DNA from: Mucilaginibacter arboris
Lineage (GTDB): Bacteria > Bacteroidota > Bacteroidia > Sphingobacteriales > Sphingobacteriaceae
Assembly (NCBI RefSeq): GCF_009754915.1
Contig: NZ_WPIK01000004.1
Coordinates: 1-64,000, forward strand
DNA: 64,000 nucleotides
Direction: 5' to 3'
A model generated the notes under the pieces. It was not told the DNA's origin. It made no database searches and saw only the letters and a list, made by a program, of their open reading frames with translations. Positions 2,463 through 64,000 of the stretch are shown here, piece after piece. The translations under genes and the position numbers were made by a program. Position 1 is the first letter of the stretch. The number at the start of each line of letters is the position of its first letter.

Positions 2463-3782
2463 CTAATGAACCAGAATTTCTGCTGTTTCCTCAATTTCCA
2501 TATCGCCTGATGCGGCAATTGCTGTTAAACGTACTGGTTTGATCTCATTTACCAGCAAAGGATCGTAAACAGTTTCGATTTTAACATAATTTCTGGTGAA
2601 GCCATGCATCAAGCCATCGTTGGTTTCTCTTTCAAACAAAACGTCTTCAAATTTGCCAACTTGTGATCCGTAAAAAGCACGACGTTTTTTATCGGATAAA
2701 ATATGCAGCATTTTGCTTCGTTCTGCTCGTGTTGAACCTGGCACTACGCCTGCTAATTCTTTTGCGGGTGTATTTTCCCGTTCAGAATAAGTAAAAACAT
2801 GCAAATAAGAAATCGGTAATTCGTTTAAAAAATTGTAAGTATCAATAAAATCTTCCCGTGTTTCTCCCGGAAAACCTACAATTACATCTACACCAATACA
2901 ACAATCGGGCATAAGTTCTTTTATTTTGCTGATGCGTTCTGTGTATAATTCACGTTTGTAACGCCGGCGCATCAAACTTAAAATCTTATTTGAACCCGAC
3001 TGTAACGGAATATGGAAATGCGGCACAAAGCGTTTGGAAGCAGCTACAAAAGCAATAATTTCATCAGTTAACAAATTTGGTTCGATGGAAGAAATACGGA
3101 TCCGGTCAATTCCTTCTACTTCATCTAAAGCTTTAACCAAATCAACAAAACGGTACTGACGGACACCATCAATCAAACCAAAATCACCAAGATTTACGCC
3201 GGTTAAAACAATTTCTTTTACACCAGATAATGCGATTTCACGTGCTTGCTTAATTACATTGCTGATTGTGTCGCTTCTGCTTGCTCCTCTTGCCATTGGA
3301 ATAGTGCAGAAGGAACAGGAATAATCGCAGCCATCCTGAACTTTTAAAAACGTACGCGTACGGTCGCCAAAAGAATAAGAAGGAATAAACTGGTTTGCTT
3401 CTTTTACCGGTGAATTATAGACAAGTGCTTTTGGATTTTTAGTGAGATCGGTAATATGCTCAACTAATTGAAATTTCTCTGATGCGCCGAGCACAATATC
3501 TACGCCTTCAATTTCTGAAATCTCTTTTGGTTTCAGTTGAGCATAACAACCTACAATTGCAATATAAGCCAAAGGCGAAATTTTTAATGCTTCTTTTACT
3601 ACCTTTTTACATTTTCGGTCGGCATTTTCTGTAACCGAGCAGGTGTTGATTACATAAACATCAGCCTGATCTGTAAAATTAACTATTTCATAATCAGCTT
3701 TTTTAAACTGCCTACCTATAGCAGAAGTTTCGGAGTAATTGAGTTTGCAACCCAGCGTGTAAAAGGCAACTTTCCTATTCAT
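2463..3782 (-). CDS. mtaB: tRNA t6A37 methylthiotransferase MtaB
   Basis: This radical-SAM enzyme adds a methylthio group to t6A37 of tRNA. The N-terminal UPF0004 domain carries C12, C48 and C79 for the auxiliary cluster. The radical-SAM motif is C152-x3-C156-x2-C159, followed by GVDVIVGFPGET. The 439-residue length and the opening GCKLNYSE favour MtaB over MiaB or RimO. Residues VVKEAL (61-66) and PVKEAN (125-130) are encoded by one exact copy and one 10-of-12 copy of the dispersed 12-mer. A TAnnTTTG box lies 11 bp before the start. Confidence 0.9.
   Translation of the reverse strand: MNRKVAFYTLGCKLNYSETSAIGRQFKKADYEIVNFTDQADVYVINTCSVTENADRKCKKVVKEALKISPLAYIAIVGCYAQLKPKEISEIEGVDIVLGASEKFQLVEHITDLTKNPKALVYNSPVKEANQFIPSYSFGDRTRTFLKVQDGCDYSCSFCTIPMARGASRSDTISNVIKQAREIALSGVKEIVLTGVNLGDFGLIDGVRQYRFVDLVKALDEVEGIDRIRISSIEPNLLTDEIIAFVAASKRFVPHFHIPLQSGSNKILSLMRRRYKRELYTERISKIKELMPDCCIGVDVIVGFPGETREDFIDTYNFLNELPISYLHVFTYSERENTPAKELAGVVPGSTRAERSKMLHILSDKKRRAFYGSQVGKFEDVLFERETNDGLMHGFTRNYVKIETVYDPLLVNEIKPVRLTAIAASGDMEIEETAEILVH
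3587..3598 (-). repeat. 12-mer inside mtaB (VKEA frame)
   Basis: Exact copy encoding VVKEAL of MtaB. A 10-of-12 relative in the same frame lies at 3396-3406 and encodes PVKEAN. Confidence 0.95.
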
Positions 3783-3813: not shown

Positions 3814-3825
3814 TAAAAGAAGCAT
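3814..3825 (+). repeat. 12-mer TAAAAGAAGCAT, ubiX-mtaB spacer
   Basis: Exact copy (GCTAAAAGAAGCATTG context). It directly abuts the hairpin at 3825-3848. Confidence 0.95.
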
Positions 3826-4446: not shown

Positions 4447-4458
4447 TAAAAGAAGCAT
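4447..4458 (+). repeat. 12-mer in ppx-ubiX spacer
   Basis: Exact copy (GCATAAAAGAAGCATTGG context) inside the 26-bp gap between ppx and ubiX. Confidence 0.95.
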
Positions 4459-7510: not shown

Positions 7511-8143
7511 TTAATCTGTTAGGGTTGATGCCGCTGTTTCCCTGTCTGCGGCCTCTGTTGCTGGTTGTGCTGCGGTAACTGCTGGTGCTGGTTTTCTGGA
7601 TGCGCGCTTGCGTTTTGCTGATGTTGTCGATGCTTCTTTTACCGGTGTTTTTTCTGTGGGTTTAGAGGCTTCCATTTCTTCTTTCGACCGTCTTGGTGCC
7701 CGTTTTTTAGCTGGCGCAACCGGTGCCGGTGCTTCTTTTACCACCTCTTTTTTTACTACAGGCGTTTCTGTTTTATCAATAGCCGGAAGTGCAGGCTTTG
7801 CTACAGATAAACCTGAAACCTGTTTTGTTTTATCACCGGCAGCTTTACTGGCTTTAGATAATACTTTCTCTGCTTTAGAATCTGCCTTGGCTACTTCTGT
7901 TTTTGCTGGCTTAACTTTTTTACCGGCTTTTTTCTCCGGTTTATCTGTGGTTTGTTCCGCTTTTGTTTTTGCTGCCTGCAATGAACTGGTTATTTTTTTA
8001 GAAACAGCTTTGCCAGCTTTGGCAATTTCCTTTTTCAGCTTTTCTGCATCATGGCCTAAACCATGCACTACATCCATAAATTTGCTGGTAATATCTTTTT
8101 CTAAATCTTTGTTTTTTACTTTTGATTTACCTTTCTTTTTCAT
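7511..8143 (-). CDS. Lys/Ala/Pro-rich histone-H1-like protein
   Basis: This 210-residue, very basic, low-complexity protein is unassigned. Residues 1-60 look partly ordered and helical (DITSKFMDVVHGLGHDAEKL). From about residue 60 the sequence is dominated by K, A, P, T and S, like bacterial histone-H1-like tails. A nucleoid or nucleic-acid-binding role is an inference from composition only. The VVKEAP and PVKEAS segments coincide with the dispersed repeat (partial at 7730-7740, exact at 7630-7641). The opposite strand is open for 195 codons, which is a composition effect. Confidence 0.7.
   Translation of the reverse strand: MKKKGKSKVKNKDLEKDITSKFMDVVHGLGHDAEKLKKEIAKAGKAVSKKITSSLQAAKTKAEQTTDKPEKKAGKKVKPAKTEVAKADSKAEKVLSKASKAAGDKTKQVSGLSVAKPALPAIDKTETPVVKKEVVKEAPAPVAPAKKRAPRRSKEEMEASKPTEKTPVKEASTTSAKRKRASRKPAPAVTAAQPATEAADRETAASTLTD
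7630..7641 (-). repeat. 12-mer inside the Lys-rich gene (VKEA frame)
   Basis: Exact copy with the CCGG extension, encoding PVKEAS. Confidence 0.95.
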
Positions 8144-8815: not shown

Positions 8816-8851
8816 GCGCTAAAAGAAGCTAAGAGATGCTTCTTTTAGCGC
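8816..8851. terminator. Hairpin of inverted 12-mers after yajQ
   Basis: A perfect 14-bp stem (8816-8829 with 8838-8851) encloses an 8-nt loop. The right arm carries an exact 12-mer on the minus strand (8836-8847). The left arm has the same sequence ending AAGCTA in place of AAGCAT. It lies 105 bp after yajQ with no long T-run. Confidence 0.7.
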
Positions 8852-9338: not shown

Positions 9339-9347
9339 CTTTATAAT

Positions 9348-9500
9348 ATGAAACAAACAAAAAATTCCGGTAAAAAACCTGTTATCAATAAGGTTGATAA
9401 AAGTTTAGACAAATATCTTGAAAAAGGACTGTTTAAAGATAAAATTGAAAAGGCTAACCATATACTTAAAACTGTTGGAATTCCTAAATTTGAAGAATAG
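9348..9500 (+). CDS. Small basic protein, 50 aa
   Basis: This 50-residue reading frame starts 9 bp after the DUF6934-like stop, with a lysine-rich N terminus (MKQTKNSGKK) and a helical centre (DKYLEKGLFKDKIEKANHIL). Close spacing, same strand and similar AT-rich composition suggest co-expression. Function is unknown; a small partner or antitoxin is a guess. Confidence 0.55.
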   Translation: MKQTKNSGKKPVINKVDKSLDKYLEKGLFKDKIEKANHILKTVGIPKFEE

Positions 9501-9665: not shown

Positions 9666-10550
9666 ATGGTTTCAAATCAAACCCAACCAAAAGCTGATGC
9701 TGTTTTTACCATCGATAAACGCAGCAACCTTTCTCAGGCAGATTTAATTAAAGAATATATTGAACCTTCTGTTCCTGTTGTGCTTACCGATGCTGCCCGA
9801 AACTGGAAAGCAATGGGCAAATTAACACCACAATTTTTTAAAGAAAATTATGGAAATTTAACTAAAGAGATAAAAGGGGTTGCGTACAAAATGGCTGATG
9901 TAGTGGATATGATTATGAAAGCCACACCAGAAAACCAGGCTCCTTATCCTTACAATTTCAACCTTAAACAATACTTTCCCGAACTGCTGACAGATTTTAC
10001 CCCGGAAATATTATACAGTAAAAGCGACCGGATCAATCATCCATTATTACCGCAGTTTCTTTTGCATGGCACAACACCTTACGAAATATTTTTAGGCGGA
10101 AAAGGTTCCTTTTTCCCTTTCCTGCATATTGATGCTTTAAACTTGCACACGCAAATTACGCAGGTTTATGGTTCTAAAGATTTCATTTTGTACCCGCCTG
10201 AACAAACGCCTTACTTGTATCCGAATGCTAATAATGCAAAGTTTTCCTGGGTTGATATTTTCAATCCGGATTACAAAAAACATCCTTTATTTAAGGAAGC
10301 AAAACCTTTAAAATTTACTTTAAATGAAGGTGAAACACTTTTGTTTCCAACCGGCTGGTGGCATTCTACCCAAATCCACGAACCTTGTATTTCTTTTGGC
10401 CGGTCGCAGTTAAATGCAGCTAATTGGGATCTGTTTATTGCTGATAATTACCGTGCTTTGAAAAAGAAGGTTTCTGTTCTGGCTTCGCCGTTATTGGTTT
10501 ATGGCAAAATTGCTGGTGGTATTATTAACAGGCAGGAAAGTTTAATTTGA
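9666..10550 (+). CDS. Cupin-like/JmjC-domain 2OG-Fe(II) oxygenase
   Basis: This 294-residue protein belongs to the cupin-8/JmjC-like group. An N-terminal segment (PVVLTDAARNWKAMGKLTP) is typical of these enzymes. The iron site is H154-x-D156 in FLHIDALNLH with H233 in GWWHST. Related enzymes hydroxylate protein side chains using 2-oxoglutarate and oxygen, or act on small molecules. The target is unknown. The gene stands alone with 165 bp of upstream DNA. Confidence 0.83.
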   Translation: MVSNQTQPKADAVFTIDKRSNLSQADLIKEYIEPSVPVVLTDAARNWKAMGKLTPQFFKENYGNLTKEIKGVAYKMADVVDMIMKATPENQAPYPYNFNLKQYFPELLTDFTPEILYSKSDRINHPLLPQFLLHGTTPYEIFLGGKGSFFPFLHIDALNLHTQITQVYGSKDFILYPPEQTPYLYPNANNAKFSWVDIFNPDYKKHPLFKEAKPLKFTLNEGETLLFPTGWWHSTQIHEPCISFGRSQLNAANWDLFIADNYRALKKKVSVLASPLLVYGKIAGGIINRQESLI

Positions 10551-10651: not shown

Positions 10652-10673
10652 TAAAAGAAGCATGCTTCTTTTA
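10652..10673. repeat. Two 12-mers fused as a perfect 22-bp palindrome
   Basis: A + copy (10652-10663) and a - copy (10662-10673) share their central AT, giving a perfect palindrome between convergent genes. Its last three bases (TTA) are the TAA stop of the GIN-domain gene. With no loop it is better seen as two head-to-head sites that can also act at the transcript end. Confidence 0.95.
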
Positions 10674-11387
10674 CTGTATCTTTTTTATACTTGCTGCACC
10701 AGAATTTGCATTATTAATTTTAGACGGATTACCTTTATACTGTACATCGCCGGCACCGCTTATATCAACGCTTAACTCGTTCAAAACGTTAATTTTACAG
10801 TGCGCTGCGCCTCTGGTTTCTATCCGGTAATTGGCTACTATAAAATCTAAAGCATTTAAATTTCCGGTCCCATTTAGCGTTACTAAGTTTTCGGTTGCTT
10901 GTCCTGTTAAATTAATTTCTGATGTTCCGCTTGCCAGCGTTTTTACATTTGCTGCACTTAAATTCAGGTTTACTTTAGATACACCGGCCAGTTCCATATC
11001 AAAATCTTTAACAGACAACTTGCCATCAGAACTTAAATCCAGTGAACCGGAAGATTTTACAGCTTGAAAATCAGGATTTGTAATATCAATTTCCATCGTT
11101 CCGGCATTACAAATGCTTCCTTTTGTACTGATTTTGAGTTCATCTCCGCTTATATCAGTTTGAATAAGTTTCAGCAAATTATCATCGGCAGTAATTTTAA
11201 CGGACGGGCTTCCTTGTTTCAACACCAATTTATATGCCCCAATAAGATTAAGTTTAGTAAAAGCAGCAACTTTACGGTTTTCCGAAACTGCTTTACCAGA
11301 ACCTTTTACGCATGAGTTATTGCAGGACGCAAGCAAAGAAAAAAGAAGTACAAATGCCGATAAAATAAGTAGCGGTTGCTTTTTCAT
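10671..11387 (-). CDS. GIN-domain (DUF2807) lipoprotein
   Basis: This 238-residue protein has a lipobox ending LLASC (C22), then a head-GIN/DUF2807 beta-solenoid. The repeats show the usual pattern: KVAAFTKLNLIGAYKLVL, then KITADDNLL and short G/S-rich turns (LSADISGAG-like). These proteins sit on the outer membrane or in the periplasm of Bacteroidota; their function is not established. Its stop codon lies inside a 12-mer palindrome. Confidence 0.85.
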   Translation of the reverse strand: MKKQPLLILSAFVLLFSLLASCNNSCVKGSGKAVSENRKVAAFTKLNLIGAYKLVLKQGSPSVKITADDNLLKLIQTDISGDELKISTKGSICNAGTMEIDITNPDFQAVKSSGSLDLSSDGKLSVKDFDMELAGVSKVNLNLSAANVKTLASGTSEINLTGQATENLVTLNGTGNLNALDFIVANYRIETRGAAHCKINVLNELSVDISGAGDVQYKGNPSKINNANSGAASIKKIQ

Positions 11388-11428
11388 AACGTTTTAAGTG
11401 TTTTAGGTTGATACAAATTTTTTGCCGG

Positions 11429-11440
11429 TAAAAGAAGCAT
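11429..11440 (+). repeat. 12-mer in recQ-GIN gene spacer
   Basis: Exact copy (GCCGGTAAAAGAAGCATTGG). It sits in the loop of a small hairpin, TGCCGG (11424-11429) with CCGGCA (11446-11451). Confidence 0.95.
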
Positions 11441-11462
11441 TGGTTCCGGCAAAATTGATGCT

Positions 11463-13447: not shown

Positions 13448-13492
13448 ATGCTGATGAAAGCCATGCTTCTTTTATCAGCATAAAAACAGCAT
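13448..13492. repeat. 12-mer inside a hairpin plus a variant copy
   Basis: An exact minus-strand 12-mer (13463-13474) sits in the loop between ATGCTGAT (13448-13455) and ATCAGCAT (13474-13481). It is followed at once by the variant TAAAAACAGCAT (13481-13492). It lies between the divergent genes recQ and the 104-aa gene. Confidence 0.85.
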
Positions 13493-13837: not shown

Positions 13838-13860
13838 TAATAAAGCAATGTTAACTGTTG

Positions 13861-13894
13861 TATCGGCCGGACTTTAATTAAAGTCCGGCCGATA
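13861..13894. terminator. Perfect 34-bp palindrome, likely terminator
   Basis: Two 17-nt arms (TATCGGCCGGACTTTAA and its complement) meet with no spacer, 23 bp after the 104-aa gene, followed by CTGTTTTT. The GC-rich stem and trailing T fit a rho-independent terminator. Confidence 0.75.
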
Positions 13895-16006: not shown

Positions 16007-16894
16007 TCAACTCATTTTCTCTGCTTTAATCATGCGGTCTTTTCCCCTAAAATCCTTTCTTAATTCAATATTTACAAAGCCTTTTTGCCGCAAAAGTTCC
16101 GTTGTTTCCTGTCCGTATTTTTCGTTGATCTCAAAAAACAACAAGCCATTTTTTTCGAGGCTAAAAGAAGCATAAGCTGCAATGGCACGATAAAATATAA
16201 GCGGATCTTTTTCGGGGACAAATAAAGCAGTATGAGGTTCAAAACCCAATACGTTATTATGCATCTCTTCCTGTTCTGCTGGTGTAATGTAAGGCGGATT
16301 ACTAACGATGATGGAATATTGCAATGCTTCTTTTACCGGCTTAAAATTTAAAATATCTTGCTTTAAAAACTTTACTTCTACTCCGTTTAGCAAAGCATTT
16401 CTTTTCGCTGTTTGTAAAGCTTCTGCCGAAATATCCAAACCATAAACTTCTGCTTCTGCCCATTTTTTTTTGATCGCAACCGAAATACAACCGCTACCTG
16501 TGCCAATATCCAATATCCGTTCATCTTTCCGCTCTCCGCTCCTCTCATCGCCGCTCAAACTTTTTCTCTCCTCCAAAACCCACGCAACCAATTCTTCTGT
16601 TTCCGGCCGGGGAATTAATACGGAAGGATTGACTTCAAACTTCAACCCAAAAAAATCTGTTTCGCCTAAAGCATATTGCACTGGCATTCCGGTTTGCAGT
16701 TTTTTTGCTGTTAAAAGAAGCATTTGGATTTGATTGCCGGTTAGTTCTTTTTCGGGGAAAGCATGTAATTGTGTTTGCGATAATCCGGTTATAAAATTCA
16801 TCGATAAAAACATTATTCCCGGGAGCTCTTCCTCAGCATAAATTACTTTTAAATTTTCTTTAAGCCAAATTCGGGCTTCGCCAACAGTTTTCAT
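16007..16894 (-). CDS. prmC: Release factor glutamine methyltransferase
   Basis: PrmC methylates the GGQ glutamine of RF1 and RF2. The SAM site is LDIGTGSGCISVAI and the catalytic motif NPPYIT. I start at ATG 16894 (295 residues, MKTVGEARIW). An in-frame upstream extension to 16954 would run into ribD and add hydrophobic residues the family lacks. The gene contains three exact 12-mers, read in three different frames (YASFSL, PVKEAL, MLLLT). It diverges from ribD with only 33 bp between starts. Confidence 0.9.
   Translation of the reverse strand: MKTVGEARIWLKENLKVIYAEEELPGIMFLSMNFITGLSQTQLHAFPEKELTGNQIQMLLLTAKKLQTGMPVQYALGETDFFGLKFEVNPSVLIPRPETEELVAWVLEERKSLSGDERSGERKDERILDIGTGSGCISVAIKKKWAEAEVYGLDISAEALQTAKRNALLNGVEVKFLKQDILNFKPVKEALQYSIIVSNPPYITPAEQEEMHNNVLGFEPHTALFVPEKDPLIFYRAIAAYASFSLEKNGLLFFEINEKYGQETTELLRQKGFVNIELRKDFRGKDRMIKAEKMS
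16162..16173 (+). repeat. 12-mer inside prmC (ASF frame)
   Basis: Exact copy; on the coding strand it encodes YASFS. Confidence 0.95.
16324..16335 (-). repeat. 12-mer inside prmC (VKEA frame)
   Basis: Exact copy with full CCGG and TTG flanks, encoding PVKEAL just before NPPY. Confidence 0.95.
16712..16723 (+). repeat. 12-mer inside prmC (MLLL frame)
   Basis: Exact copy; on the coding strand it encodes MLLL. Confidence 0.95.
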
Positions 16895-19241: not shown

Positions 19242-19934
19242 TTAGCCGGACATTTTTTTAAAATTTTCTTTACTTACCCGGTTTCCATGTCCAAAAACAG
19301 CAATATCAAAAGGGAAAGCAGCTAATTTTTTCAAAGTTTGCAGATTGATTTTTGCAGATTGATAAGCATAAGCAGGTTTTAAGCTTTTTAAATTTTCGGC
19401 GCTGTCTGCGGCAAAAAGCAATGCTTCTTTTACCGGGTAAAAAAGTGCGATCTGTTCTGAAGTATGTCCTGGTGCATTAATTATTTGTAATCCGTTTACA
19501 GCCGGGACCTGGTCGCCTTCCTGAACTGTTCTTACAGAAGATTTTATTGGTTCGATATATAAAAACTGTAATCTGATTAAGCCAAACAAAGTAATTAGCT
19601 TCAGTAAAAAAGATAACACTTTTGATCCCGGTTCAAAAGCAATTCCTTTTTTAATCATTTCCGCACAAAGTGCAGAAGCATAAACCGGAACATTAACCGA
19701 TCCTAAAATCGCAGCCAAACTTCCGGAATGGTCATGATGTGCATGAGTAAGAATGATATATTTCAAATCTTCCGGCTGCTTTCCGGTCTGCCTGATCCCT
19801 TCAAAAATTAAATCTTTGCTACCTTTTGGGCCGGTATCAATCAAAATTAAACCGGCAGGATGATCAACCAAAAAAACATTAACAATAGGAAGTGTTAACT
19901 GGAAAACATATTTTGTTACCTCGATAACTTCCAT
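19242..19934 (-). CDS. Metallo-beta-lactamase-fold hydrolase
   Basis: This 230-residue protein has the dinuclear zinc motif H64-x-H66-x-D68-H69 (THAHHDHSG), a later histidine in APGHTSEQI, an aspartate in AADS and a final histidine in FGHGN. It is cytoplasmic by lack of a signal. The substrate is unknown; homologues include glyoxalase-II-like and lactonase-like enzymes. It follows the SRPBCC gene by 12 bp, so the two are likely co-transcribed. PVKEAL is encoded by a 12-mer copy. Confidence 0.86.
   Translation of the reverse strand: MEVIEVTKYVFQLTLPIVNVFLVDHPAGLILIDTGPKGSKDLIFEGIRQTGKQPEDLKYIILTHAHHDHSGSLAAILGSVNVPVYASALCAEMIKKGIAFEPGSKVLSFLLKLITLFGLIRLQFLYIEPIKSSVRTVQEGDQVPAVNGLQIINAPGHTSEQIALFYPVKEALLFAADSAENLKSLKPAYAYQSAKINLQTLKKLAAFPFDIAVFGHGNRVSKENFKKMSG
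19421..19432 (-). repeat. 12-mer inside the MBL gene (VKEA frame)
   Basis: Exact copy with CCGG and TTG flanks, encoding PVKEAL. Confidence 0.95.
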
Positions 19935-20436: not shown

Positions 20437-20448
20437 TAAAAGAAGCAT
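20437..20448 (+). repeat. 12-mer upstream of the SRPBCC gene
   Basis: Exact copy in the extended form AGGTGATAAAAGAAGCATTG. Confidence 0.95.
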
Positions 20449-21603: not shown

Positions 21604-21615
21604 ATGCTTCTTTTA
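21604..21615 (-). repeat. 12-mer between two hydrolase genes
   Basis: Exact copy (CAATGCTTCTTTTATC on the + strand), 20 bp from the inverted repeat at 21635. Confidence 0.95.
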
Positions 21616-25050: not shown

Positions 25051-25102
25051 TAGGTGGTAAAAGAAGCATTGACTAATTTCTTTATGCTTCTTTTATCACC
25101 TA
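25051..25102. terminator. Bidirectional hairpin from two inverted 12-mers
   Basis: A 19-bp stem (25051-25069 with 25084-25102, one G-T pair) and a 14-nt loop contain a + copy (25058-25069) and a - copy (25084-25095). It lies between convergent genes, and the minus-strand gene's TGA stop (25096-25098) is in the right arm. Confidence 0.9.
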
Positions 25103-28458: not shown

Positions 28459-28514
28459 ATGCTTCTTTTACCGGGTAAAAGTTTGCGTTGTGATAAAAAC
28501 CAATGCTGCTTTTA
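28459..28514. repeat. 12-mer and a variant copy between rpsO and the S41 gene
   Basis: An exact minus-strand copy with the CCGGG extension (28459-28470) is followed by a GTGATAAAA...TTTTATCAC inverted pair that holds the variant TAAAAGCAGCAT on the minus strand (28503-28514). Confidence 0.9.
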
Positions 28515-30746: not shown

Positions 30747-31525
30747 ACAACAGCAAACGGTTTAAGATTAAAAAGCTGATGTTCCTGAAAACAAATTTCA
30801 AATAAACCGTTCAATTGCAATGCTGTTCCAATTTGTTTAATGGTTTCTTTGGAGATGATTGCGCCCAGGTTCCAAACTGATGTTAATTTTTCACCGGTAA
30901 AAGAAGCATACATTAGTTTTTGGGTTGAAGGACGAAAAGTACGCAGCAACAGCATTTCATTGGCAGCAAATAATTTGGCAGCTTTGGTAAACGAAATTAC
31001 AGGTTTTCCACCTAAAGAAGCTGTTTTATACAGATCATTTATCAGCCAAACCAAATCCGGGTTTTCAACAGCAGCAACGGCGATATTCTCTGTTGGATAA
31101 CCTAATTGCAAACAAGCTTTAGAAAATTCTCCGAAGGAAGAAGTTACCCGAAACGGTACTGTTTTTATGCCACTAAAATTTAGTTTTTGAAGGACTTCTG
31201 CAGGATTTGATAACAGTTTTCGGGTAATTAAATCAGGAAGATGAAGCTGAATATTAAACTCGGAAAACAGTTCTGTTGCTTCAGCTAACAATTCCTGCTC
31301 AGAAAAAGACATTGGAAAAACAGCATCTATTTGATTATCCAGACAAATATTTAATACCTGATGGATGTAATCAGCCTGCGAAACTTGCGGAAGTATAATT
31401 TGTTGGATTGAAGGAATTTGTGCGATAAAAGAAGCATCGCCATAAATAAACTCGTATTGCGGCAACCATTTCTCCAAAAAATAAACACTTGGATTTTGTC
31501 CGCATGTGATTAGCGCTTTCGTCAT
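30743..31525 (-). CDS. ATP-grasp-like protein, possibly partial fold
   Basis: This 260-residue protein resembles the N-terminal half of carbamoyl-phosphate-synthase-type ATP-grasp proteins: a Rossmann-like start ([10 protein letters not shown]), [20 protein letters not shown], then [20 protein letters not shown]. The usual ATP-binding lysines and Mg-binding D/E-x-N of a full ATP-grasp are not evident. Its start and end overlap its neighbours by 4 bp each, so it is in an operon with the LolD-like ATPase and the HAD protein. Two 12-mers encode YASFTG and DASFIA. Confidence 0.6.
30898..30909 (+). repeat. 12-mer in the ATP-grasp-like gene (ASF frame)
   Basis: Exact copy with CCGG extension, encoding YASFTG. 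Confidence 0.95.
31426..31437 (+). repeat. 12-mer in the ATP-grasp-like gene (ASF frame)
   Basis: Exact copy in the GATAAAAG form, encoding DASFIA. Confidence 0.95.
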
Positions 31526-32348: not shown

Positions 32349-33512
32349 TTAAAATTGTTCAACATTTAAAAGAAGCATCTTCTTGTTGGTTAGATTACGT
32401 TCAATACGAATCCGAGTTATTTTTAAGGTGTCTACAAATAACATCTTTTTAAATATATCACTGCGGCTTACTGGTTGTTTATTTATTTCAAATTGGTAAT
32501 TATCCATTATGCTATTAACAGTTTCTTTTCTTAGAATATTCCATGTTGATCTGTCAATTGTTTTTATTTTATTTTTTAAATTTTCAAGCGCGTAGGTTTT
32601 AGTATAAACGATAACCGCTCCATTCTTATCAGCGGGATTTTTTCTGGTTGCCTCAATACTTGCTATATCTATTGGTTGGATTGAAGGAATATTAGATGAT
32701 AAATATTTTTTGCCGTCTATATACCAAACCGGCAATTTATCCATAAAAGATTTATATTGACCTTTAACAGCTTCGTATTTAATAAAAATATCATCTTTAA
32801 TCGTTGGTTGCAGGTTTTTAAAATTCCAAATAAGTTGTTGTCCGTTTATTTTAAAATGTTCTTTAGGTGTAGTACTCAGTAACTGATCTGTAGGTATATT
32901 TTTAAGGTTTACCACAACTTTGGCATTTTCAATCGGGCCTTTCCAAGCTGCTCCTGTACTTAACAAGTAATTAAAAAAACGATTGCTTTTAACAGCACCA
33001 GATGGCAAACGATATTTTACAATAATTTTTAGAGATTCATTCTGATCAAAATGCACTTTCCATAAATACCAGGGCTTATTTTGATTTTGGTAATCCTGTA
33101 GCAACTTATACCTTTCCTGACCATCATGTCCTGAAAGCATGGATAATAAATTTTGTGGAACAAAGATGTCAACCTTGTTAATTTTATTCTCTCTTACAAA
33201 AACTTCAAATTGGTTTTTGGTTTTCTGGCTCGTAAGGCTTTCTGAAAGATTACTGCTCCATAAGTAAAAGTTCATAATAGGGAACCCAATTTCCAAATCT
33301 TGTGCCTTGTCAAAATTGTGCATATTAAATACACATTCTACAAATGAACTATCTTTATATAAGTCCACAGTTACCAACTCTGATACCATCTGAATATTGA
33401 CAGGCTGTGCAGGTACAATACCTTTTACATTAATTGGATTAGGGATTATATCGGCATAAGTGAATAAACCAATCAAATTAAAAAGAATAAGTAATAGTAA
33501 GTACTTGCTCAT
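32349..33512 (-). CDS. Exported protein, DUF4424-like
   Basis: This 387-residue protein has a signal peptide (MSKYLLLLILFNLIGLFTYA) and a beta-rich body. The segment ELVTVDLYKDSSFVECVFNM followed by DLEIGFPI resembles DUF4424-type exported proteins (v-x-Y-F-N, then FP). The match is tentative. It is more AT-rich than its neighbours, which could mean later acquisition. A 12-mer encodes KKMLLLN just before the C terminus. Confidence 0.6.
   Translation of the reverse strand: MSKYLLLLILFNLIGLFTYADIIPNPINVKGIVPAQPVNIQMVSELVTVDLYKDSSFVECVFNMHNFDKAQDLEIGFPIMNFYLWSSNLSESLTSQKTKNQFEVFVRENKINKVDIFVPQNLLSMLSGHDGQERYKLLQDYQNQNKPWYLWKVHFDQNESLKIIVKYRLPSGAVKSNRFFNYLLSTGAAWKGPIENAKVVVNLKNIPTDQLLSTTPKEHFKINGQQLIWNFKNLQPTIKDDIFIKYEAVKGQYKSFMDKLPVWYIDGKKYLSSNIPSIQPIDIASIEATRKNPADKNGAVIVYTKTYALENLKNKIKTIDRSTWNILRKETVNSIMDNYQFEINKQPVSRSDIFKKMLFVDTLKITRIRIERNLTNKKMLLLNVEQF
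32367..32378 (+). repeat. 12-mer near the 3' end of the exported gene (MLLL frame)
   Basis: Exact copy (TTTAAAAGAAGCATCTTC), encoding MLLL ten residues before the end. Confidence 0.95.
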
Positions 33513-36291: not shown

Positions 36292-36303
36292 ATGCTTCTT
36301 TTA
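36292..36303 (-). repeat. 12-mer after the sucC terminator
   Basis: Exact copy with CCGG extension, 5 bp beyond the terminator. Confidence 0.95.
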
Positions 36304-36399: not shown

Positions 36400-37587
36400 A
36401 TGCTTACTCACCGCCAGCTTTTTTTGCTGAATGTTGCCCAAACATCCAACTCACCAAGATTATTAGAAATTGAACGTGCCGAAGGACTACATTTGTACGA
36501 CGTTCAAGGCAAAACTTATATGGATTTGGTTTCAGGTTTTGCGGTAAGCAACACCGGACATAAACATCCTGAAATTGTACAGGCGATAAAAGACCAGGTA
36601 GATCTGTACATGCACTTGAGCGTTTACGGCGAATATGTGCAAACGCCACAAGTTAAGCTGGCAGAAAAAATAACCTCACTCCTTCCAGAACAGCTCAATT
36701 CGGTTTACTTCACCAATTCGGGCACAGAAGCAACGGAAGGCGCCATGAAATTAGCCAAACGTTTTACCGGCCGGTCAGAAATTATTGCCTGTAAAAACAG
36801 CTATCATGGCAGTTCACAAGGCGCTTTAAGTTTGATGGGAAATGAGGGATTTAAACAAGCTTATCGTCCATTGCTTCCGGGAATTAAATTTATCAACTTT
36901 AATCAGCAACAGGATTTAGAACAGATTACAACCGAAACCGCAGCTGTAATTGTAGAAACCATTCAGGGAGAAGCAGGAATACGTGTTCCTGAGGTAGAAT
37001 ATATGCTTCTTTTAAGGCATAAATGTTCGCAAACCGGAACTTTACTGATTTTGGATGAAATACAAACGGGTTTCGGCCGGACCGGAAAACTGTATGCTTT
37101 TGAACATTTCGGGATCGTTCCTGATATTTTGTTAACCGCAAAAGCTTTTGGCGGCGGCATGCCTTTGGGCGCTTTTATCGCACCAAAATATTTGATGGAT
37201 GCGTTAAAAGAAAACCCGATTTTAGGCCATATCACTACTTTTGGCGGCCATCCGGTTTGTTGTGCAGCAGGTTTAGCTTCGCTGGAAGTAATCCTGAAAG
37301 AAGATTTGATGCGAGATGTTGCTGAAAAAGAAAGCCTGTTTAGAGAATTGCTTCAGCATAAAGAAATTAAAGAAGTGCGCGGAAAAGGATTGATGCTGGC
37401 CATCCAGTTAAGCAGCTTTAACCAGGTAGAAAGCGTGAGTAAACGCTGTGTGGAAAACGGGGTAATTGTAGATTGGTTTCTGCATTGTGAAACCGCTTTG
37501 CGTATTGCGCCGCCGTTAATTATCACGGAAGAAGAAATCCGGAAAGCTTGTGCGGTGATTTTGGAAGCGATTGAATTTTACAAATAA
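36400..37587 (+). CDS. Class III PLP aminotransferase (acetylornithine-type)
   Basis: This 395-residue enzyme has NSGTEATEGAMKLAKRFTGR, LLILDEIQTGFGRTGKLYAF and the PLP lysine in LTAKAFGGGMPLGAF. It resembles acetylornithine/ornithine and aspartate aminotransferase-family enzymes; the substrate is not certain. I start at ATG 36400 rather than the in-frame TTG two codons earlier. The -7 box is 3 bp upstream, so the mRNA may be leaderless. A 12-mer encodes MLLL at the middle of the protein. Confidence 0.9.
   Translation: MLTHRQLFLLNVAQTSNSPRLLEIERAEGLHLYDVQGKTYMDLVSGFAVSNTGHKHPEIVQAIKDQVDLYMHLSVYGEYVQTPQVKLAEKITSLLPEQLNSVYFTNSGTEATEGAMKLAKRFTGRSEIIACKNSYHGSSQGALSLMGNEGFKQAYRPLLPGIKFINFNQQQDLEQITTETAAVIVETIQGEAGIRVPEVEYMLLLRHKCSQTGTLLILDEIQTGFGRTGKLYAFEHFGIVPDILLTAKAFGGGMPLGAFIAPKYLMDALKENPILGHITTFGGHPVCCAAGLASLEVILKEDLMRDVAEKESLFRELLQHKEIKEVRGKGLMLAIQLSSFNQVESVSKRCVENGVIVDWFLHCETALRIAPPLIITEEEIRKACAVILEAIEFYK
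37003..37014 (-). repeat. 12-mer inside the aminotransferase gene (MLLL frame)
   Basis: Exact copy encoding YMLLLR. Confidence 0.95.
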
Positions 37588-38516: not shown

Positions 38517-39440
38517 TCAAGCCATTTTATTTCTTTTAATTAAATAAGCTTTTAGAACCTGATCATAACCTTGATGCAGATTCGCGTCAACCAGATCAAT
38601 ATGATATTGCACGCATTTTAATTCCAGGCTGTGCCGATAATTGTTTAAGGCAGAACGGTAACCTTCCCGGATTTCGTTTGGATGTACCTTCATCTCCTCT
38701 CCGCTTTCCAAATCAACAAAATGATAAGGCCTGTTTTCAAAATTAAACTCCAGCTCTTTCTGATGATCTGTAATATTGAAAATCACAACTTCGTGTTTGG
38801 CGTGTTTTAAATGTTGCAGGGAAGCAAAAAGATCGGCAGATTTCTGTTCGTCCATGGCGTTTTCCAGCATATCGCTAAAAATAATGATAAGCGAACGTTT
38901 GTGCACTTGCCCGGCCAGCTGATGTAAAACCTCCGCAATTCCGGTTGACCGCATGCTTCTTTTATCATGCAAAATCTTTTCTAACTGAGCAAAAAGGTAA
39001 AACAGATGAGCGGAAGTAGATTTAGCCGGACTGATGAAATTAACCTGATCTGAAAAAAGACAAAGGCCAAATGCATCGCGCTGTTTCTTAAACAAATACA
39101 TGAGAGAAGCTGCAGCATAAACGGCAAATTCCAGTTTACTTAAATTTTTTTCCGGGAAGTTCATGGAAGAGGAAGTATCCAGAACCAGAAAGCAACGGAG
39201 GTTGGTTTCTTCTTCAAACTGCTTAACGAACAGTTTATCTGTTCTGGCCATCAGTTTCCAATCTACATTTCGCACTGATTCGCCATTATTATAAGCACGA
39301 TGTTCGGCAAACTCCACCGAAAAACCGTGAAATGGACTTTGGTGTAAACCGGTTATAAAGCCTTCTACCACTTGCTTGGCAAGCAACTCTAAGTTGGCAA
39401 ACTGCTGGATTTCCTGGTTTTGGCTTAGGCTGATACTCAT
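38517..39440 (-). CDS. DUF58 protein with vWA-like domain
   Basis: This 307-residue protein has the DUF58 hallmark RNVDWKLMARTDKLFVKQF and a vWA-type metal site LDTSSSMN, then SLIIIFSDML. DUF58 proteins usually lie beside MoxR ATPases, which act as chaperones; none is here. It is cytoplasmic by sequence. A 12-mer encodes KRSM. Confidence 0.88.
   Translation of the reverse strand: MSISLSQNQEIQQFANLELLAKQVVEGFITGLHQSPFHGFSVEFAEHRAYNNGESVRNVDWKLMARTDKLFVKQFEEETNLRCFLVLDTSSSMNFPEKNLSKLEFAVYAAASLMYLFKKQRDAFGLCLFSDQVNFISPAKSTSAHLFYLFAQLEKILHDKRSMRSTGIAEVLHQLAGQVHKRSLIIIFSDMLENAMDEQKSADLFASLQHLKHAKHEVVIFNITDHQKELEFNFENRPYHFVDLESGEEMKVHPNEIREGYRSALNNYRHSLELKCVQYHIDLVDANLHQGYDQVLKAYLIKRNKMA
38953..38964 (-). 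repeat. 12-mer inside the DUF58 gene (KRS frame)
   Basis: Exact copy encoding DKRSMR, the only copy seen in this frame, and flanked by GCATG/CATGC. Confidence 0.95.
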
Positions 39441-39496: not shown

Positions 39497-39508
39497 TAAA
39501 AGAAGCAT
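39497..39508 (+). repeat. 12-mer at the 3' end of a small gene
   Basis: Exact copy in the extended form AGGTGGTAAAAGAAGCAT. It touches the TGA stop of the 42-aa gene (39508-39510). Confidence 0.95.
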
Positions 39509-39940: not shown

Positions 39941-39952
39941 TAAAAGAAGCAT
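39941..39952 (+). repeat. 12-mer upstream of the DUF2683-like gene
   Basis: Exact copy. Its complement starts with ATG and creates a spurious in-frame start (MLLL). Confidence 0.95.
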
Positions 39953-41420: not shown

Positions 41421-44400
41421 TTTAAAGTAACCGGGTTATTAGTTAAAATTTTAACACTATCAATAAAATCATCCGCCGGGTTTACTTTAAAACTTCTTGA
41501 TGGCATTTCAACAGCAATTGCTTCCTCTTTATCCTTTACCTGGAAACGCAGCACGCAGTTTTTAACCGCATATTTCTGGTTATTGGCTTCCACCAGTTCC
41601 TGCAAATCGTTTAATAAACGGTCTGAAAGCTCGTTCAGGTTTAAGCTGATGGTTATTGATTTCGTTAGTTTATCGCGAAGTTCGGAAAGGAGGTTCATGG
41701 ACGTGATGCGCAGATCCCAGTTGTCCTTTTGCCTGTATTTTTCTTCGATACAACCTTTAACCTGCACAAAATAGCCATCGAACAGCATGTTTTTAAACTT
41801 AATGTAATCATCGCCAAATAAAGCGAATTCGTAAGAATCATTGTAATCCTCTAAAACAAAAGTGCCGAAAGGATTACCGGTTTTGGTCATTTTATGCTGA
41901 ACGTTAGACATCAGGCCGCCGATACAAAGTTCGCTCCTGCGTTTTAGCTCGTTAAAAGAAGCAACCACCTCGTCCCCGCCTTCCTTGTTCTTCATTTTCT
42001 GGATCAGCTTCAGGTCCAATACCGAACTGTTGCAGAATTTATCCAATTCGAACTTGTAATTATCCAGCGGATGCCCGGTTAAATAAATGCCGATCAGGTC
42101 TTTTTCGTATTTCAGCTTTTCGATCAGCGGATATTCTTCTGCTTCCGGCATAGGTGGTTCGGGGATAAAAGAAGCATTTGCACCTCCGAATAAAGAAACC
42201 TGGGAACTGTTCTGCGAATTTTGAAAATCGTTTCCGTACTTGATCAAACGTTCTAAACCTGTTAAAATCCCGTTCTCCGTTTTCACAAAGAACTGCGAGC
42301 GCTTTAACCCGAAACTATCGAAAGCGCCGCTATAAACTAAATTTTCACAAGATTTTTTGTTGACCGAACGGTTATTAGAACGGCGCGCAAAATCGTAAAT
42401 GGATTGGTAAGGGCCGTTTGCATCACGTTCTTCGATAATACTTTCTACCGCTTTTTCGCCTACACCTTTAATTCCGGCCAGGCCAAAACGGATTTCCCCT
42501 TTTTGATTGACGGTGAACGTATTGAAAGATTCGTTCACATCGGGGCCAAGCACCGGGATGTTCATTTGCCGGCATTCGTCCATAAAAAATGTGATCTTTT
42601 CAATATTGTTCTGGTTATTTAATACGGCTGACATGTACTCTGCCGGGTAATGCGCCTTTAAATAAGCGGTTTGATAAGCTACAAAAGCGTAACAGGTAGA
42701 ATGCGATTTGTTAAAGGCGTATTGGGCAAACGCCTTCCAGTCGTTCCAGATCTTGGTCAGTTTATCTTTGGGATGCCCTTTTGCAATAGCGCCTTCGGTA
42801 AATTGCGATTCCATTTTATTCAGGACCTCAATCTGCTTTTTACCCATCGCTTTACGCAAAACATCCGCATCGCCTTTGCTAAAGCCCGCCAGTTTTTGCG
42901 ATAACAACATCACCTGCTCCTGGTAAACCGTAATTCCGTAGGTTTCGGCAAGATATTCTTCCATATCCGGCAAATCATATGAAATTGCCTCCAGGCCGTG
43001 TTTCCTTTTGATAAAGTTTGGAATGTATTCTATCGGTCCAGGACGATAAAGCGCATTCATAGCAATCAGGTCCTCGAACTTATCAGGCTTTAATTCGCGC
43101 ATGTACATTTGCATGCCGTCGCTTTCAAACTGAAAGGTTCCGTTGGTATTTCCGGCCTGGTACAGATCGTAGGTTTCTTTATCGTCCAACGGTATCTCGT
43201 CAATAGAAATATCGATATGATGATTTAGCTTGATCATCCGGAGCGCATCTTTAATAATGGTCAAGGTTTTTAATCCCAAAAAGTCCATTTTAATTACACC
43301 TGCATCTTCAATTACCTTACCGTCAAATTGCGTAACCAGCAAGGTAGATTCTTTGGAAGTAGCAACCGGAACAATATTGGTGAGATCATCCGGCGCGATG
43401 ATAATTCCGGCAGCATGCACACCTGTATTCCGGATGGACCCTTCCAGCTTTTCCGCTTCTCTTAAAACCTTAGATTTCAGGTCTTTTCCCTTAAATATCT
43501 CTTGTAATTCCGGAACTTGTTCTATTGCCTTTTTAAGCGTGATACCTAACGTTTCCGGTACTAATTTCTTAATTGAATTTACTTCGGATAAAGGCATATT
43601 TAACGCACGGCCCACATCCTGGATACTGGTACGGGCAGCCATAGAACCATAAGTAATGATCTGGGCAACCTGGTTTTGTCCGTATTTATCTACCACATAA
43701 TCTATTACTTTCTGGCGGCCTTCATCATCAAAATCCGTATCAATATCGGGCATTGATTTACGGTCCGGATTAAGAAAACGCTCAAACAGCAGGTTATATT
43801 TAATCGGGTCGATATTGGTGATGCCGATACAATAAGCAACCGCAGAACCTGCTGCCGAACCACGGCCAGGACCAACAAAAACGCCTAAGTCGCGGCCGGC
43901 TTTAATAAAATCAGCAACAATTAAAAAGTAACCCGCGAAGCCCATTGTTTTGATCGTAAACAACTCAAAATCGAGCCGTTCCTGCACTTCCAGGCCTATT
44001 TCGTGATAACGCTCTTTAGCACCTTTATAGGTCAGATCTTTCAGGTATTCCCACTGATTCAAAACGTCTGCGTCCGCTCCATGATGTATCTTAAATTCCT
44101 GAGGAACAGGAAAATTAGGCAACATAATATCACGCTTTAATTTAAGATGGTCGATCTTGTCGACAATCTCATTGGTATTATCCAAAGACTCGGGAATATC
44201 CTGAAAAAGCTGCCCCATTTCGGCCTGAGTTTTAAAATAAAACTGATCGTTAGGGAAACCAAACCGATAGCCCTTTCCGCCTTCTTCATCTATGGCGATC
44301 GGCGTGCTTTGCATATCGCCTGTATTTACGCATAAAAGAATATCATGGGCATTGGCGTCCTGCTGATCTACGTAATGAGAATCATTGGAGCATATTACTT

Positions 44401-45117: not shown

Positions 45118-45129
45118 ATGCTTCTTTTA
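45118..45129 (-). repeat. 12-mer between dnaE and tamB
   Basis: Exact copy in the extended form; the minus strand reads TTTTTAGGTGGTAAAAGAAG then CAT. Confidence 0.95.
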
Positions 45130-45184: not shown

Positions 45185-45214
45185 ATGCTTATTTTACTGC
45201 GATAAAAGAAGCAT
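45185..45214. repeat. Inverted 12-mer pair between dnaE and tamB
   Basis: A + copy (45203-45214) pairs with a minus-strand copy that has one mismatch (45185-45196, ATGCTTATTTTA) across a 6-nt loop. Confidence 0.85.
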
Positions 45215-52762: not shown

Positions 52763-52774
52763 ATGCTTCTTTTA
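52763..52774 (-). repeat. 12-mer next to the tamL terminator
   Basis: Exact copy 4 bp from the palindrome, just before the stop of the barrel gene at 52779. Confidence 0.95.
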
Positions 52775-55327: not shown

Positions 55328-55735
55328 AGCAATATAATATTGGTTTGTGGGTTAAAGTTATAAATCTTGTTTGTAATAAACAGGAATAGAAAATGTTATG
55401 TTTTAAAGAGAAATTTTTAATAGCCGTGATGATTTTATGCCGGTAAAAGAAGCATGGCTGATAAAAATTGCAGTGTGGCCTTATATTTGGCCCAAAAGAT
55501 TTATATGACAGGACCTGCAATTGCACAAGTTAAAAAAACAAACTGTTTTTAACAATGTATTAGTTTTGAAACCTGATGTTTAAAATTAACGTATTATTAA
55601 TACGGTTGTCTAAATATCCGTATTTGAATTATAAAGTTTAGTAAAACCAAACTTATTAAACTTATTAGCCCAAGCTTAATCTATAATATAGATGCGTGTA
55701 AATTTTTTATCGATAAAAACAGTATCCCTAGTATT
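55328..55735. other. 408-bp intergenic region with one 12-mer
   Basis: No reading frame here is credible. It is AT-rich, holds the exact 12-mer at 55444-55455 and the variant TAAAAACAGTAT at 55714-55725, just upstream of the GH2 gene, and presumably the two divergent promoters. Confidence 0.6.
55444..55455 (+). repeat. 12-mer upstream of the phosphohexomutase
   Basis: Exact copy in the form GCCGGTAAAAGAAGCATGG. Confidence 0.95.
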
Positions 55736-57584: not shown

Positions 57585-57596
57585 TAAAAGAAGCAT
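57585..57596 (+). repeat. 12-mer between GH2 and mazE
   Basis: Exact copy, 11 bp after the GH2 stop. Confidence 0.95.
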
Positions 57597-58282: not shown

Positions 58283-59500
58283 TTACAAACCCTGCGCAAT
58301 AACAAAGCCGCTTGCCCAAGCCCATTGAAAATTATAACCGCCCAACCAACCGGTAACATCTACACATTCTCCGCCAAAATATAGTCCTGGTACTTTTTTA
58401 GCTTCTAATGTTTTGGAGGAAAGTTCTTGTGTTGAAACGCCGCCACGCATTACCTCAGCTTTATCATAACCTTTATCTCCGGCAGGCTTCACTTTAAAAT
58501 GATGGATTAATGCTTCAGTTTTTTGCAAATCAGCTTTACTTAACGAAGCAAGATTTTTTTCTACCGGTAAAAGAAGCATTAAAGCTTCCGCAAACTTTCT
58601 TGTATATAAGTTTGATAACAAAGTAAGTAACTGTTTTTTTCCGTTAAGACTTCGCTCCTCCTCAATCAATTCCAAAATGTGTTGGTTTGGAAGTAAATCG
58701 ATTTCAATAGCATTGCCAGGTTTCCAGTAAGAAGAAATCTGTAGAATTGCTGGTCCGCTTAAACCCCAATGCGTAAACAAAATGTTTTCTTCGAAACTGA
58801 TCTCGCCACAACTTACACGGCAAAAAATAGAATTACCGGAAAGCTGTTCGTACCATTGCTGCTCTTTTCCGGTAATGGTTAGCGGAACCAAAGCCGGCGC
58901 TGTTTGCGTGATTTGCAGTCCAAATTGCCGTGCTATTTTCAACCCAAAATCTGTTGCGCCCATTTTGGAAATCGGCAAACCGCCGGTTGCAATCACAACT
59001 TTTGGCGATCTGATCGTTTCCTCTCTTCCGTTCCTAACCAATTTAATTTCAAAGCCAATGCTGTTTTTATCGATACTTTTTACTTCTGTGTTGCACCAGA
59101 TTTCCTGATTGATATCGGTACACAAATCCGTAAAAACTTTTACAATATCTTTTGCTTTGTTGCTCTCCGGAAAAAGCTGTCCTAATGTTTTTTCTTTTCC
59201 TTTTATTCCTCCATAAACTTCAAAAAAACTAATCGTATCCTGAACAGTAAATTGCGAAAAAGCTGATTTGCAAAAGTGCTCGTTCTCTGAAATAAACTGT
59301 TGAGCTGACGTATTCAGGTTAGTATAATTACATCTTCCGCCGCCGCTGATCAAAATCTTTGCGCCTGGTTGACTGTTTTTTTCGATAACTAATGTTCGTT
59401 TTCCCAATAATCCGGCTTGTGCAGCGCACATTAAACCGCAAGCGCCGGCACCAATAATTACCGCATCAAAACCAATGTCTTTTGTTAAATTTGTACTCAT
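58283..59500 (-). CDS. BaiN/HI0933-like FAD oxidoreductase
   Basis: This 405-residue flavoprotein has an N-terminal Rossmann motif (FDAVIIGAGACGLMCA), GGGRCNYTN and C-terminal GGECVDVTGWLGGYNFQWAW, the HI0933 signature. Members include BaiN-type reductases; the substrate is unknown. Its frame is open to 59683, but I start at ATG 59500 because the Rossmann motif follows within 15 residues and nuoA begins there on the other strand. A 12-mer encodes MLLLPV. Confidence 0.88.
   Translation of the reverse strand: MSTNLTKDIGFDAVIIGAGACGLMCAAQAGLLGKRTLVIEKNSQPGAKILISGGGRCNYTNLNTSAQQFISENEHFCKSAFSQFTVQDTISFFEVYGGIKGKEKTLGQLFPESNKAKDIVKVFTDLCTDINQEIWCNTEVKSIDKNSIGFEIKLVRNGREETIRSPKVVIATGGLPISKMGATDFGLKIARQFGLQITQTAPALVPLTITGKEQQWYEQLSGNSIFCRVSCGEISFEENILFTHWGLSGPAILQISSYWKPGNAIEIDLLPNQHILELIEEERSLNGKKQLLTLLSNLYTRKFAEALMLLLPVEKNLASLSKADLQKTEALIHHFKVKPAGDKGYDKAEVMRGGVSTQELSSKTLEAKKVPGLYFGGECVDVTGWLGGYNFQWAWASGFVIAQGL
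58568..58579 (+). repeat. 12-mer inside the flavoprotein gene (MLLL frame)
   Basis: Exact copy with CCGG extension, encoding LMLLLPV. Confidence 0.95.
59486..59493 (+). promoter_or_regulatory. -7 box 5 bp before nuoA
   Basis: TAAATTTG is followed by TACTC and then ATG 59499. The box lies within the divergent flavoprotein coding region. Confidence 0.5.
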
Positions 59501-61311: not shown

Positions 61312-61617
61312 ATGGAAACCAAAGAAAAATTTTCTGATATAATTAAAGGGGACAAACCGGTATTGGTTGATTTTTTTGCAACCTGGTGCGGCCCGTGCAA
61401 ATCTCAGGCACCAATTTTAGATAACCTGAAAAGTACGTTGCAGGATGAAGTAACGATTTTAAAAATTGATGTTGATAAAAACCCGAAAGCAGCAGCAGCA
61501 TACCAGGTGCAAGGCGTACCAACTTTAATTTTGTTTAAAAACGGACAAATTAAATGGCGGCAATCGGGCGTTGCCAACATTGCGCAATTGCAACAGGTTA
61601 TAAAAAATGCACGGTAA
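61312..61617 (+). CDS. Thioredoxin-family protein
   Basis: This 101-residue cytoplasmic protein has WCGPC (C26, C29) and cis-proline VQGVPTLILFK. It is a second thioredoxin, distinct from trxA at 40021. Its TAA stop (61615-61617) is the first three bases of a 12-mer. Confidence 0.93.
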   Translation: METKEKFSDIIKGDKPVLVDFFATWCGPCKSQAPILDNLKSTLQDEVTILKIDVDKNPKAAAAYQVQGVPTLILFKNGQIKWRQSGVANIAQLQQVIKNAR

Positions 61618-61626
61618 AAGAAGCAT
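61615..61626 (+). repeat. 12-mer providing the thioredoxin stop codon
   Basis: Exact copy; its TAA is the stop of the thioredoxin gene, between two convergent genes. Confidence 0.95.
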
Positions 61627-63599: not shown

Positions 63600-64000
63600 A
63601 TGAACAAATTTTCCAAAACTCTAATTACTGCCGGAATGCTTCTTTTAGGCACCCAATTACAAGCGCAGGATTACATTTCCGCTTTGATCAAATCAGGCCC
63701 GGCAGATGCTACCAAATTAGCCAATGCTTACCTCGAACCCTTATTTAAAGGTTTTGGAACCGGCATCAACAGCGGCTGGAACAATACAGCAAAAACTAAA
63801 AGTTTGCTTGGTTTTGATTTGCGTGCCAGCGTTTCTGCTGTATTTACCCCTTCTTCGGATAAAACTTTTGATATAACCAAAATTGGCTTATCTAATAATG
63901 TGCGCCCGACCGATGCCAGCAGGACCATTGCCCCAACCATTGGTGGTTCTGGTGCTGCTCCTCAAATTGCTGTTTATGACGATCAAAACCGAAAAGTTGG
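63600..64000 (+). CDS. Exported DUF6588-like protein (N-terminal part)
   Basis: The gene is cut off by the window end. The first residues form a signal peptide (MNKFSKTLITAGMLLLGTQLQAQ), and the mature part (DATKLANAYLEPLFKGFG, then GINSGWNNTAKTKSLLGFDL) resembles the DUF6588 exported proteins of Bacteroidota; this is from memory. The function is unknown. A 12-mer encodes MLLL within the signal peptide. Confidence 0.75.
   Translation, partial: MNKFSKTLITAGMLLLGTQLQAQDYISALIKSGPADATKLANAYLEPLFKGFGTGINSGWNNTAKTKSLLGFDLRASVSAVFTPSSDKTFDITKIGLSNNVRPTDASRTIAPTIGGSGAAPQIAVYDDQNRKV
63636..63647 (-). repeat. 12-mer inside a signal peptide (MLLL frame)
   Basis: Exact copy that encodes MLLL of the signal peptide core. 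Confidence 0.95.

Follow-up and report, generated by a model that had tools for sequence, protein, structure and literature searches.

A perfect 22-bp palindrome in the genome of Mucilaginibacter arboris, TAAAAGAAGCATGCTTCTTTTA, consists of two copies of a 12-bp word that forms the core of a repeated, genus-specific DNA element. The existence of this element is near certain, and its sequence properties suggest that it probably acts as a DNA uptake signal. The palindrome lies in the 64,000-nucleotide stretch analyzed here (the window) and was singled out by a first-pass annotation, which described it as two 12-mers fused through a shared central AT, with the TAA stop codon of a GIN-domain gene at its end. 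This description is accurate: the sequence equals its own reverse complement, the two cores on opposite strands overlap at the AT, and the GIN-domain open reading frame (ORF) stops within the minus-strand core (Table 1). The reading that was attached to it (selection at the gene end or frequent gene conversion) is partly supported, and did not include the genus-specific repeat, which reaches up to about 2,000 copies.

The 4,163,231-base (4.16-Mb) genome contains 1,947 copies of the core TAAAAGAAGCAT, or one per 2.1 kb, split 965/982 between the strands, and the reversed word used as a control gave 0 and 1 copies. Two other genomes of the genus contain 2,114 and 1,118 copies (strand splits of 1,059/1,055 and 520/598), and each of the 397 non-genus genomes among 400 drawn from the order has 12 or fewer. 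The window holds 35 copies, and together with 15 other stretches of the same genome it forms a 364-kb sample with 171 copies versus 0.13 expected from composition. Four of these stretches (L046, L049, L051 and L052) were picked because they hold a fused site, and L043, part of a run along contig C1, also holds one. All 15 sampled 20-kb stretches, representing part of the genome, carry the core in 2 to 16 copies each. At such copy numbers in the window and in the genome, the palindrome cannot be attributed to chance. The low-density stretch L040 was considered as possible foreign DNA and ruled out, as it contains ordinary-looking genes; its 2,351-aa ORF is presumably SprA-like. A comparable word was sought in 20 stretches of 20 genomes, representing 18 other genera of the family, where the commonest 11-mers reached 2 to 5 copies per stretch. 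Of these stretches, L063 is all N and two others measure 7.8 kb and 16.2 kb. Among named genomes, the 22-mer was found in six stretches: four in one 'uncultured Mucilaginibacter' MAG, one in a lichen Sphingobacteriaceae MAG and one in a Peptococcaceae MAG. A viral source was also considered and rejected, since two extended forms hit 2 and 8 virus contigs, each of them once, with no repeated carrier.

The complete element spans about 25 bp and comprises an A/T tract at positions -12 to -7, about one helical turn upstream of the core, a loose SYGR linker, and the core TAAAARMAGYAT, most often in the form TAAAAGAAGCAT (the 171 sampled copies). Immediately before the core, position -2 is strongly G and position -1 is A or G; little signal is present 3' of the core, and the flanks beyond the ~25-bp element are unrelated among copies. 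Core positions 2-5, 8 and 9 are almost invariant. The commonest single changes in the 364 kb are C to T at position 10 (30 copies), T to C (15 copies) or T to A (7 copies) at position 12, and G to A at position 6 (14 copies), with 10 changes at position 7; a second common version carrying a double change is represented by TAAAAACAGCAT (37 copies) and TAAAAACAGTAT (24 copies). Independent evidence for the tract as part of the element is provided by tail-to-tail pairs, of which the M. arboris genome has 27 at gaps of 0-20 and 34 at gaps of 21-51. By hand count, 17 pairs have a gap of 20, four each of 18 and 19, and two of 21; gaps of 7-17 and 22-27 are empty, one pair has a gap of 28, and 31 have gaps of at least 32. 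In the two pairs with a gap of 6, the partner's own T run occupies the tract position. This pattern indicates that two cores either share one A/T tract or keep whole elements apart.

The core is conserved between species at the DNA level, third codon positions included. In alignments with contigs of the sister species, background identity was 78.5% (column identity 0.785), versus 0.86-0.98 for core columns and 0.88-0.97 for positions -12 to -8, and identity dropped to 0.50-0.57 immediately 3' of the core, with gaps scored as differences. Only alignments longer than 300 bp were used, and a non-syntenic match at window 8937-9353 was excluded. The 12-mer was exact in 30 of 42 sister comparisons, equivalent to 15 of 27 distinct ones because exact pairs were counted from both sides. 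Third codon positions were identical in 36/36 cases under the core and 17/18 under the tract, compared with 5,896/9,803 elsewhere (6 sites inside ORFs, 9 comparisons). In the sister genome G001, recQ (C89, 9089-10973; L025, L026) matches in two frames with internal stops, reflecting either an assembly error or decay.

When the stretches chosen for fused sites were excluded, 122 copies remained, of which 67 are intergenic, 48 lie inside ORFs on both strands and 7 are at an edge, in a sample with 76% of the sequence called coding. Across all stretches, the core density was 25 copies in 11.9 kb of convergent gaps, 66 in 47.6 kb of codirectional gaps and 9 in 14.9 kb of divergent gaps, as delimited by a custom gene caller that misses some genes, so that intergenic counts are somewhat high. 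The copies in codirectional gaps are oriented unevenly (24 on the transcript strand versus 42 on the other), which is not predicted by uptake drive alone. Copies within ORFs (for example, 7511-8143, 16007-16954 and 19242-19934) repeatedly encode PVKEA or VKEA, and these peptides occur 8 and 19 times, respectively, in 92,860 residues of called ORFs, counted in the M. arboris genome alone.

One contig of 78,466 bp (G000:C8, L083-L086) contains a single core copy versus 36.7 expected (P 4e-15). It carries a conjugation gene of the TraM family, whose neighbouring ORFs we take to be transfer- and mobilisation-like, and it is either an element, a plasmid or mis-binned. This is a case of foreign (or mis-binned) DNA without the motif in one contig, and mis-binning would give the same picture.

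A composite motif whose tract and core are spaced by about one helical turn, conserved as DNA on both strands of ORFs in genomes with no pilus motor over the search cut-off, would also suit the site of an intracellular DNA protein, be it a nucleoid or chromosome-organising protein or a Chi-like system, spread by selection or recombination bias. We consider this explanation rather unlikely. The copies show no strand bias genome-wide and none that is consistent among the sampled stretches, which would seem unlike Chi or KOPS, and Chi sites are shorter than the near-fixed 12-bp core. Their occurrence in every stretch sampled from part of the genome does not point to one macrodomain, and such a protein would not by itself explain a burst confined to one genus. 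The genus-only burst, the even strands and the depletion in foreign DNA are probably better accommodated by uptake drive than by a nucleoid or recombination protein.

A look for the fused form elsewhere in the genome, proposed in the first-pass annotation, revealed seven further copies, bringing the number of 22-mers to 8 versus 0.36 expected. With these copies and the partial conservation in the sister species (see below), the outcome that the annotation had named as refuting its reading did not occur. The expected number comes from shifting the 171 sampled sites at random by up to 300 bp, randomizing their strand and scaling the result to 1,947 copies, and, unlike the placement counts, it included the stretches chosen for fused sites. 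Head-to-head pairs of the 11-mer at gaps of 0-20 number 45 in the M. arboris genome, compared with 40 and 16 in its two relatives of the genus; the expectation for M. arboris is 7.7 for the 12-mer, or about 10 when scaled to the commoner 11-mer (155 versus 136 copies in the sample). All 13 fused loci (the 8 in this genome and 5 of the 6 in named genomes) are outside called ORFs, and none lies between divergent genes. By hand count, at four of the eight M. arboris sites the perfect symmetry continues over 44-48 bp, which would fit either hairpin selection or templated palindrome repair, while the window copy stops at 22 bp. Hairpins fold at 8816-8851, at 25050-25100 and at the window palindrome, which forms a 9-10-bp hairpin of -7.4 kcal/mol (55 bases, plus strand) or -8.8 kcal/mol (35 bases, minus strand) with z-scores of about -2.0 and -2.5, respectively. 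A terminator scan passed 8816-8851 (5 found versus 3.5 in shuffles) and did not call the palindrome. Judged from folding and position, paired copies may also serve to end transcripts.

The excess of head-to-head pairs, these folds, the location of fused sites outside ORFs and the higher density in convergent than in divergent gaps would be expected if the repeat were a set of RNA hairpins, acting as intrinsic terminators or as stabilisers of 3' ends, with single copies as leftover half-arms. However, the copies are mostly single, as the 45 pairs account for only about 90 of the 1,947, and more than a third of the unselected ones (48/122) reside inside ORFs on both strands. Furthermore, the A/T tract is conserved though outside the core stem, the smaller share of codirectional copies is on the transcript strand, and the window palindrome was uncalled by the terminator scan, making an origin as RNA hairpins improbable. 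Two additional perfect palindromes were observed in the window. The first, of 40 bp (52719-52758, AAAAAAAGCATGGCTACAATATTGTAGCCATGCTTTTTTT), is located between convergent genes beside the core at 52763 and is probably a bidirectional terminator; the second, of 36 bp (13860-13895, GTATCGGCCGGACTTTAATTAAAGTCCGGCCGATAC), lies between two plus-strand genes and is unrelated to the repeat.

At the palindrome itself, the TAA stop of the GIN gene corresponds to the first three bases of the minus-strand core copy. Comparison of this junction in the sister species gave a mixed result, with the site partly conserved in both and the exact 22-mer in neither. All three species carry a motif copy as the plus-strand arm (in G002 the A-C version, TAAAAACAGCAT), while a full core in the stop-bearing minus-strand arm is restricted to the species of the window. 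The corresponding sequence of G001, TAAAAGGAGGATGCTTCTTTTA, still folds (-9.6 kcal/mol), and that of G002, TAAAAAGTGAAATGCTGTTTTTA, folds poorly (-3.6 kcal/mol, z -0.3), so that the hairpin is kept in two of the three species. The initial proposals, gene-end selection acting on the stop or frequent conversion of the site, would be consistent with the overlap of stop and palindrome, with the GIN gene ending at the same TAA in all three species and with the 44-48-bp palindromes at half of the fused sites. Nevertheless, gene-end selection is unneeded: because its first three bases are TAA, a core that lies in frame on a gene's coding strand necessarily terminates that ORF, and the overlap at the palindrome follows from the core sequence. 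Of 260 genes called in the sample, only 2 have their stop on a core (with at least one further case, at 61615, that escaped the caller), and the perfect 22-mer is not present at this site in the two sisters, which makes this explanation very improbable. Insertion and decay of a mobile or REP-like repeat is hardly credible, because in spite of the many copies, the occasional pairs and palindromes and the gaps in 5 of the 12 non-exact sister comparisons, the flanks outside ~25 bp are unrelated, the other 7 comparisons are ungapped substitutions and copies sit in conserved reading frames.

Table 1. Positions of core copies and associated features in the window, and of the comEC gene pair in stretch L087
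Feature	Position	Strand	Evidence or remark
22-bp perfect palindrome	10652..10673	none	two cores overlapping by AT
Core copy, left arm	10652..10663	+	exact in sister G001; TAAAAACAGCAT version in sister G002
Core copy, right arm	10662..10673	-	contains TAA of GIN gene; 2 mismatches in G001, no core in G002
GIN-domain (DUF2807) gene, ends in palindrome	10671..11387	-	ORF and Pfam DUF2807, E 8.7e-38
Cupin-like/JmjC gene, convergent with GIN gene	9666..10550	+	ORF and profile match
Stem-loop 3' of 8220-8711 gene, terminator-like; arms are core (8836) and core-like stretch	8816..8851	+	fold, scan
Head-to-head core pair; 17-bp outer stem folded with flanks	25058..25095	none	fold
HHH-domain gene and comEC pair	L087:12947-14995 and 10823-12943		adjacent genes
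Core copy	3814..3825	+	exact match
Core copy	4447..4458	+	exact match
Core copy	11429..11440	+	exact match
Core copy, inside ORF	16162..16173	+	exact match
Core copy, inside ORF	16712..16723	+	exact match
Core copy	20437..20448	+	exact match
Core copy	25058..25069	+	exact match
Core copy	30898..30909	+	exact match
Core copy	31426..31437	+	exact match
Core copy	32367..32378	+	exact match
Core copy	39497..39508	+	exact match
Core copy	39941..39952	+	exact match
Core copy	42166..42177	+	exact match
Core copy	45203..45214	+	exact match
Core copy	55444..55455	+	exact match
Core copy	57585..57596	+	exact match
Core copy	58568..58579	+	exact match
Core copy; TAA is stop of 61312-61617 ORF	61615..61626	+	exact match
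Core copy, inside ORF	3587..3598	-	exact match
Core copy, inside ORF	7630..7641	-	exact match
Core copy	8836..8847	-	exact match
Core copy	13463..13474	-	exact match
Core copy, inside ORF	16324..16335	-	exact match
Core copy, inside ORF	19421..19432	-	exact match
Core copy	21604..21615	-	exact match
Core copy	25084..25095	-	exact match
Core copy	28459..28470	-	exact match
Core copy	36292..36303	-	exact match
Core copy	37003..37014	-	exact match
Core copy	38953..38964	-	exact match
Core copy	45118..45129	-	exact match
Core copy	52763..52774	-	exact match
Core copy	63636..63647	-	exact match

The proposed function in DNA uptake was assessed by criteria for uptake sequences drawn from excerpts of PMC1626085, PMC2397512, PMC3630211 and PMC12616744. 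The element exhibits high copy number, strong consensus, even strands and both coding and non-coding placement, as well as opposite pairs, conservation above the flanks, rarity in acquired DNA and an A/T flank. Differences by substitution rather than insertion are a further feature of such sequences, and the non-exact sister comparisons here comprised 7 without and 5 with gaps. Uptake sequences are said to be known only from the Neisseriaceae and Pasteurellaceae, with Neisseria and Haemophilus using them as 'self' tags. There is about an even chance that the Mucilaginibacter element would represent a third independently evolved uptake signal, the first in Bacteroidota, restricted to one genus and recognized by a pilus-free reader (possibly the HHH protein described below or a surface receptor). 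The matches listed in the open-licence PMC literature included no description of such an uptake repeat in Bacteroidota, and none of those listed, judged by title and start of the abstract, presented uptake or transformation data for Mucilaginibacter.

The competence proteins ComEC and DprA are encoded in all three genomes of the genus, and both are also common in relatives without the repeat (ComEC in 55 of 60). A search for the type IV pilus/type II secretion ATPase (PF00437) gave no match over the cut-off in these three genomes, the same search being positive in 11 of 60 genomes and in 13 of 14 controls. The presence of ComEC and DprA with no pilus ATPase over the cut-off would imply a pilus-free reader, whereas the known reader of DUS and the predicted reader of USS are type IV minor pilins (excerpts of PMC12616744). 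Directly upstream of comEC, the genome encodes a protein of ~680 aa with an HHH_3 domain. HHH_3 was matched in 13/13 members of an alignment at E 0.1 (best 1.7e-9), the alignment comprising 13 of 17 proteins (L096, L100, L103 and L106 left out); the M. arboris protein matches HHH_3 at 0.019 only, under Pfam's cut-off, and on its own gave no match in Pfam at E 0.01, NCBIfam or PDB. The HHH gene adjoins comEC in all 14 other genera of the family sampled and is syntenic in 17 of 17 family genomes, with no HHH match at three comEC loci outside the family (L073-L075). Because genera lacking the repeat have the comEC-HHH pair as well, the HHH protein is a candidate for the channel rather than an explanation of specificity. 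The HHH protein is a possible pilus-free DNA uptake channel, and in our reading its long C-terminal part is a predicted outer-membrane barrel.

Like the Pasteurellaceae USS of the Hin and Apl types, as presented in excerpts of PMC1626085 and PMC12616744, the element combines a short strong core with A/T tracts, and is found on both strands, in and between genes and in opposite-oriented pairs. As far as these excerpts extend, it differs in its unrelated core, in having one upstream tract instead of two downstream, and in its density, which is about one per kb for USS. It also differs in its occurrence in Bacteroidota with no pilus ATPase over the cut-off, and in that its role in uptake is a putative one. 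The resemblance to the DUS dialects of Neisseriaceae (excerpts of PMC3630211 and PMC2397512) includes a 10-12-mer in thousands of copies that is conserved above its surroundings, rare in acquired DNA and present as inverted pairs tied to terminators. In contrast to the element with its A/T tract, DUS are described in excerpts of PMC1626085 as having no flanking motif, and paired DUS in those of PMC3630211 as non-overlapping save in one named genome, whereas the fused overlap occurs eight times here. Within Bacteroidota, the closest parallel in competence considered is Riemerella (Flavobacteriaceae), which needs ComEC, DprA and an HHH protein; the hits named in excerpts on a transposon screen (PMC8459023) are ComEC, DprA, ComF, RecA, an HHH protein and some proteins whose function is unknown, and do not include a pilus gene. 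R. columbina prefers self DNA, and in the excerpts of PMC7965970 only low-complexity k-mers are listed (A/T-rich words in Table 3), with no such repeat among them.

We propose that a surface receptor of the genus may bind the A/T tract and the core on one helix face and thereby favour self DNA, and that repeated transformation by DNA from kin would then drive the copies up in number. The likely route would be a system independent of type IV pili that ends in ComEC, perhaps via the HHH protein encoded beside it. Head-to-head copies between convergent genes could form a hairpin in the transcript and be kept as terminator-like 3' ends; the palindrome is itself a head-to-head overlap of two copies of the genus-specific element.

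If the uptake reading is correct, the element would be a third case of such a signal, in another phylum and without a pilus motor, would show that self-tags evolve repeatedly, and would offer a new system for finding a receptor. The molecular-drive account would become testable, as three species carry the repeat and sister genera do not, and Mucilaginibacter would be marked as naturally transformable.
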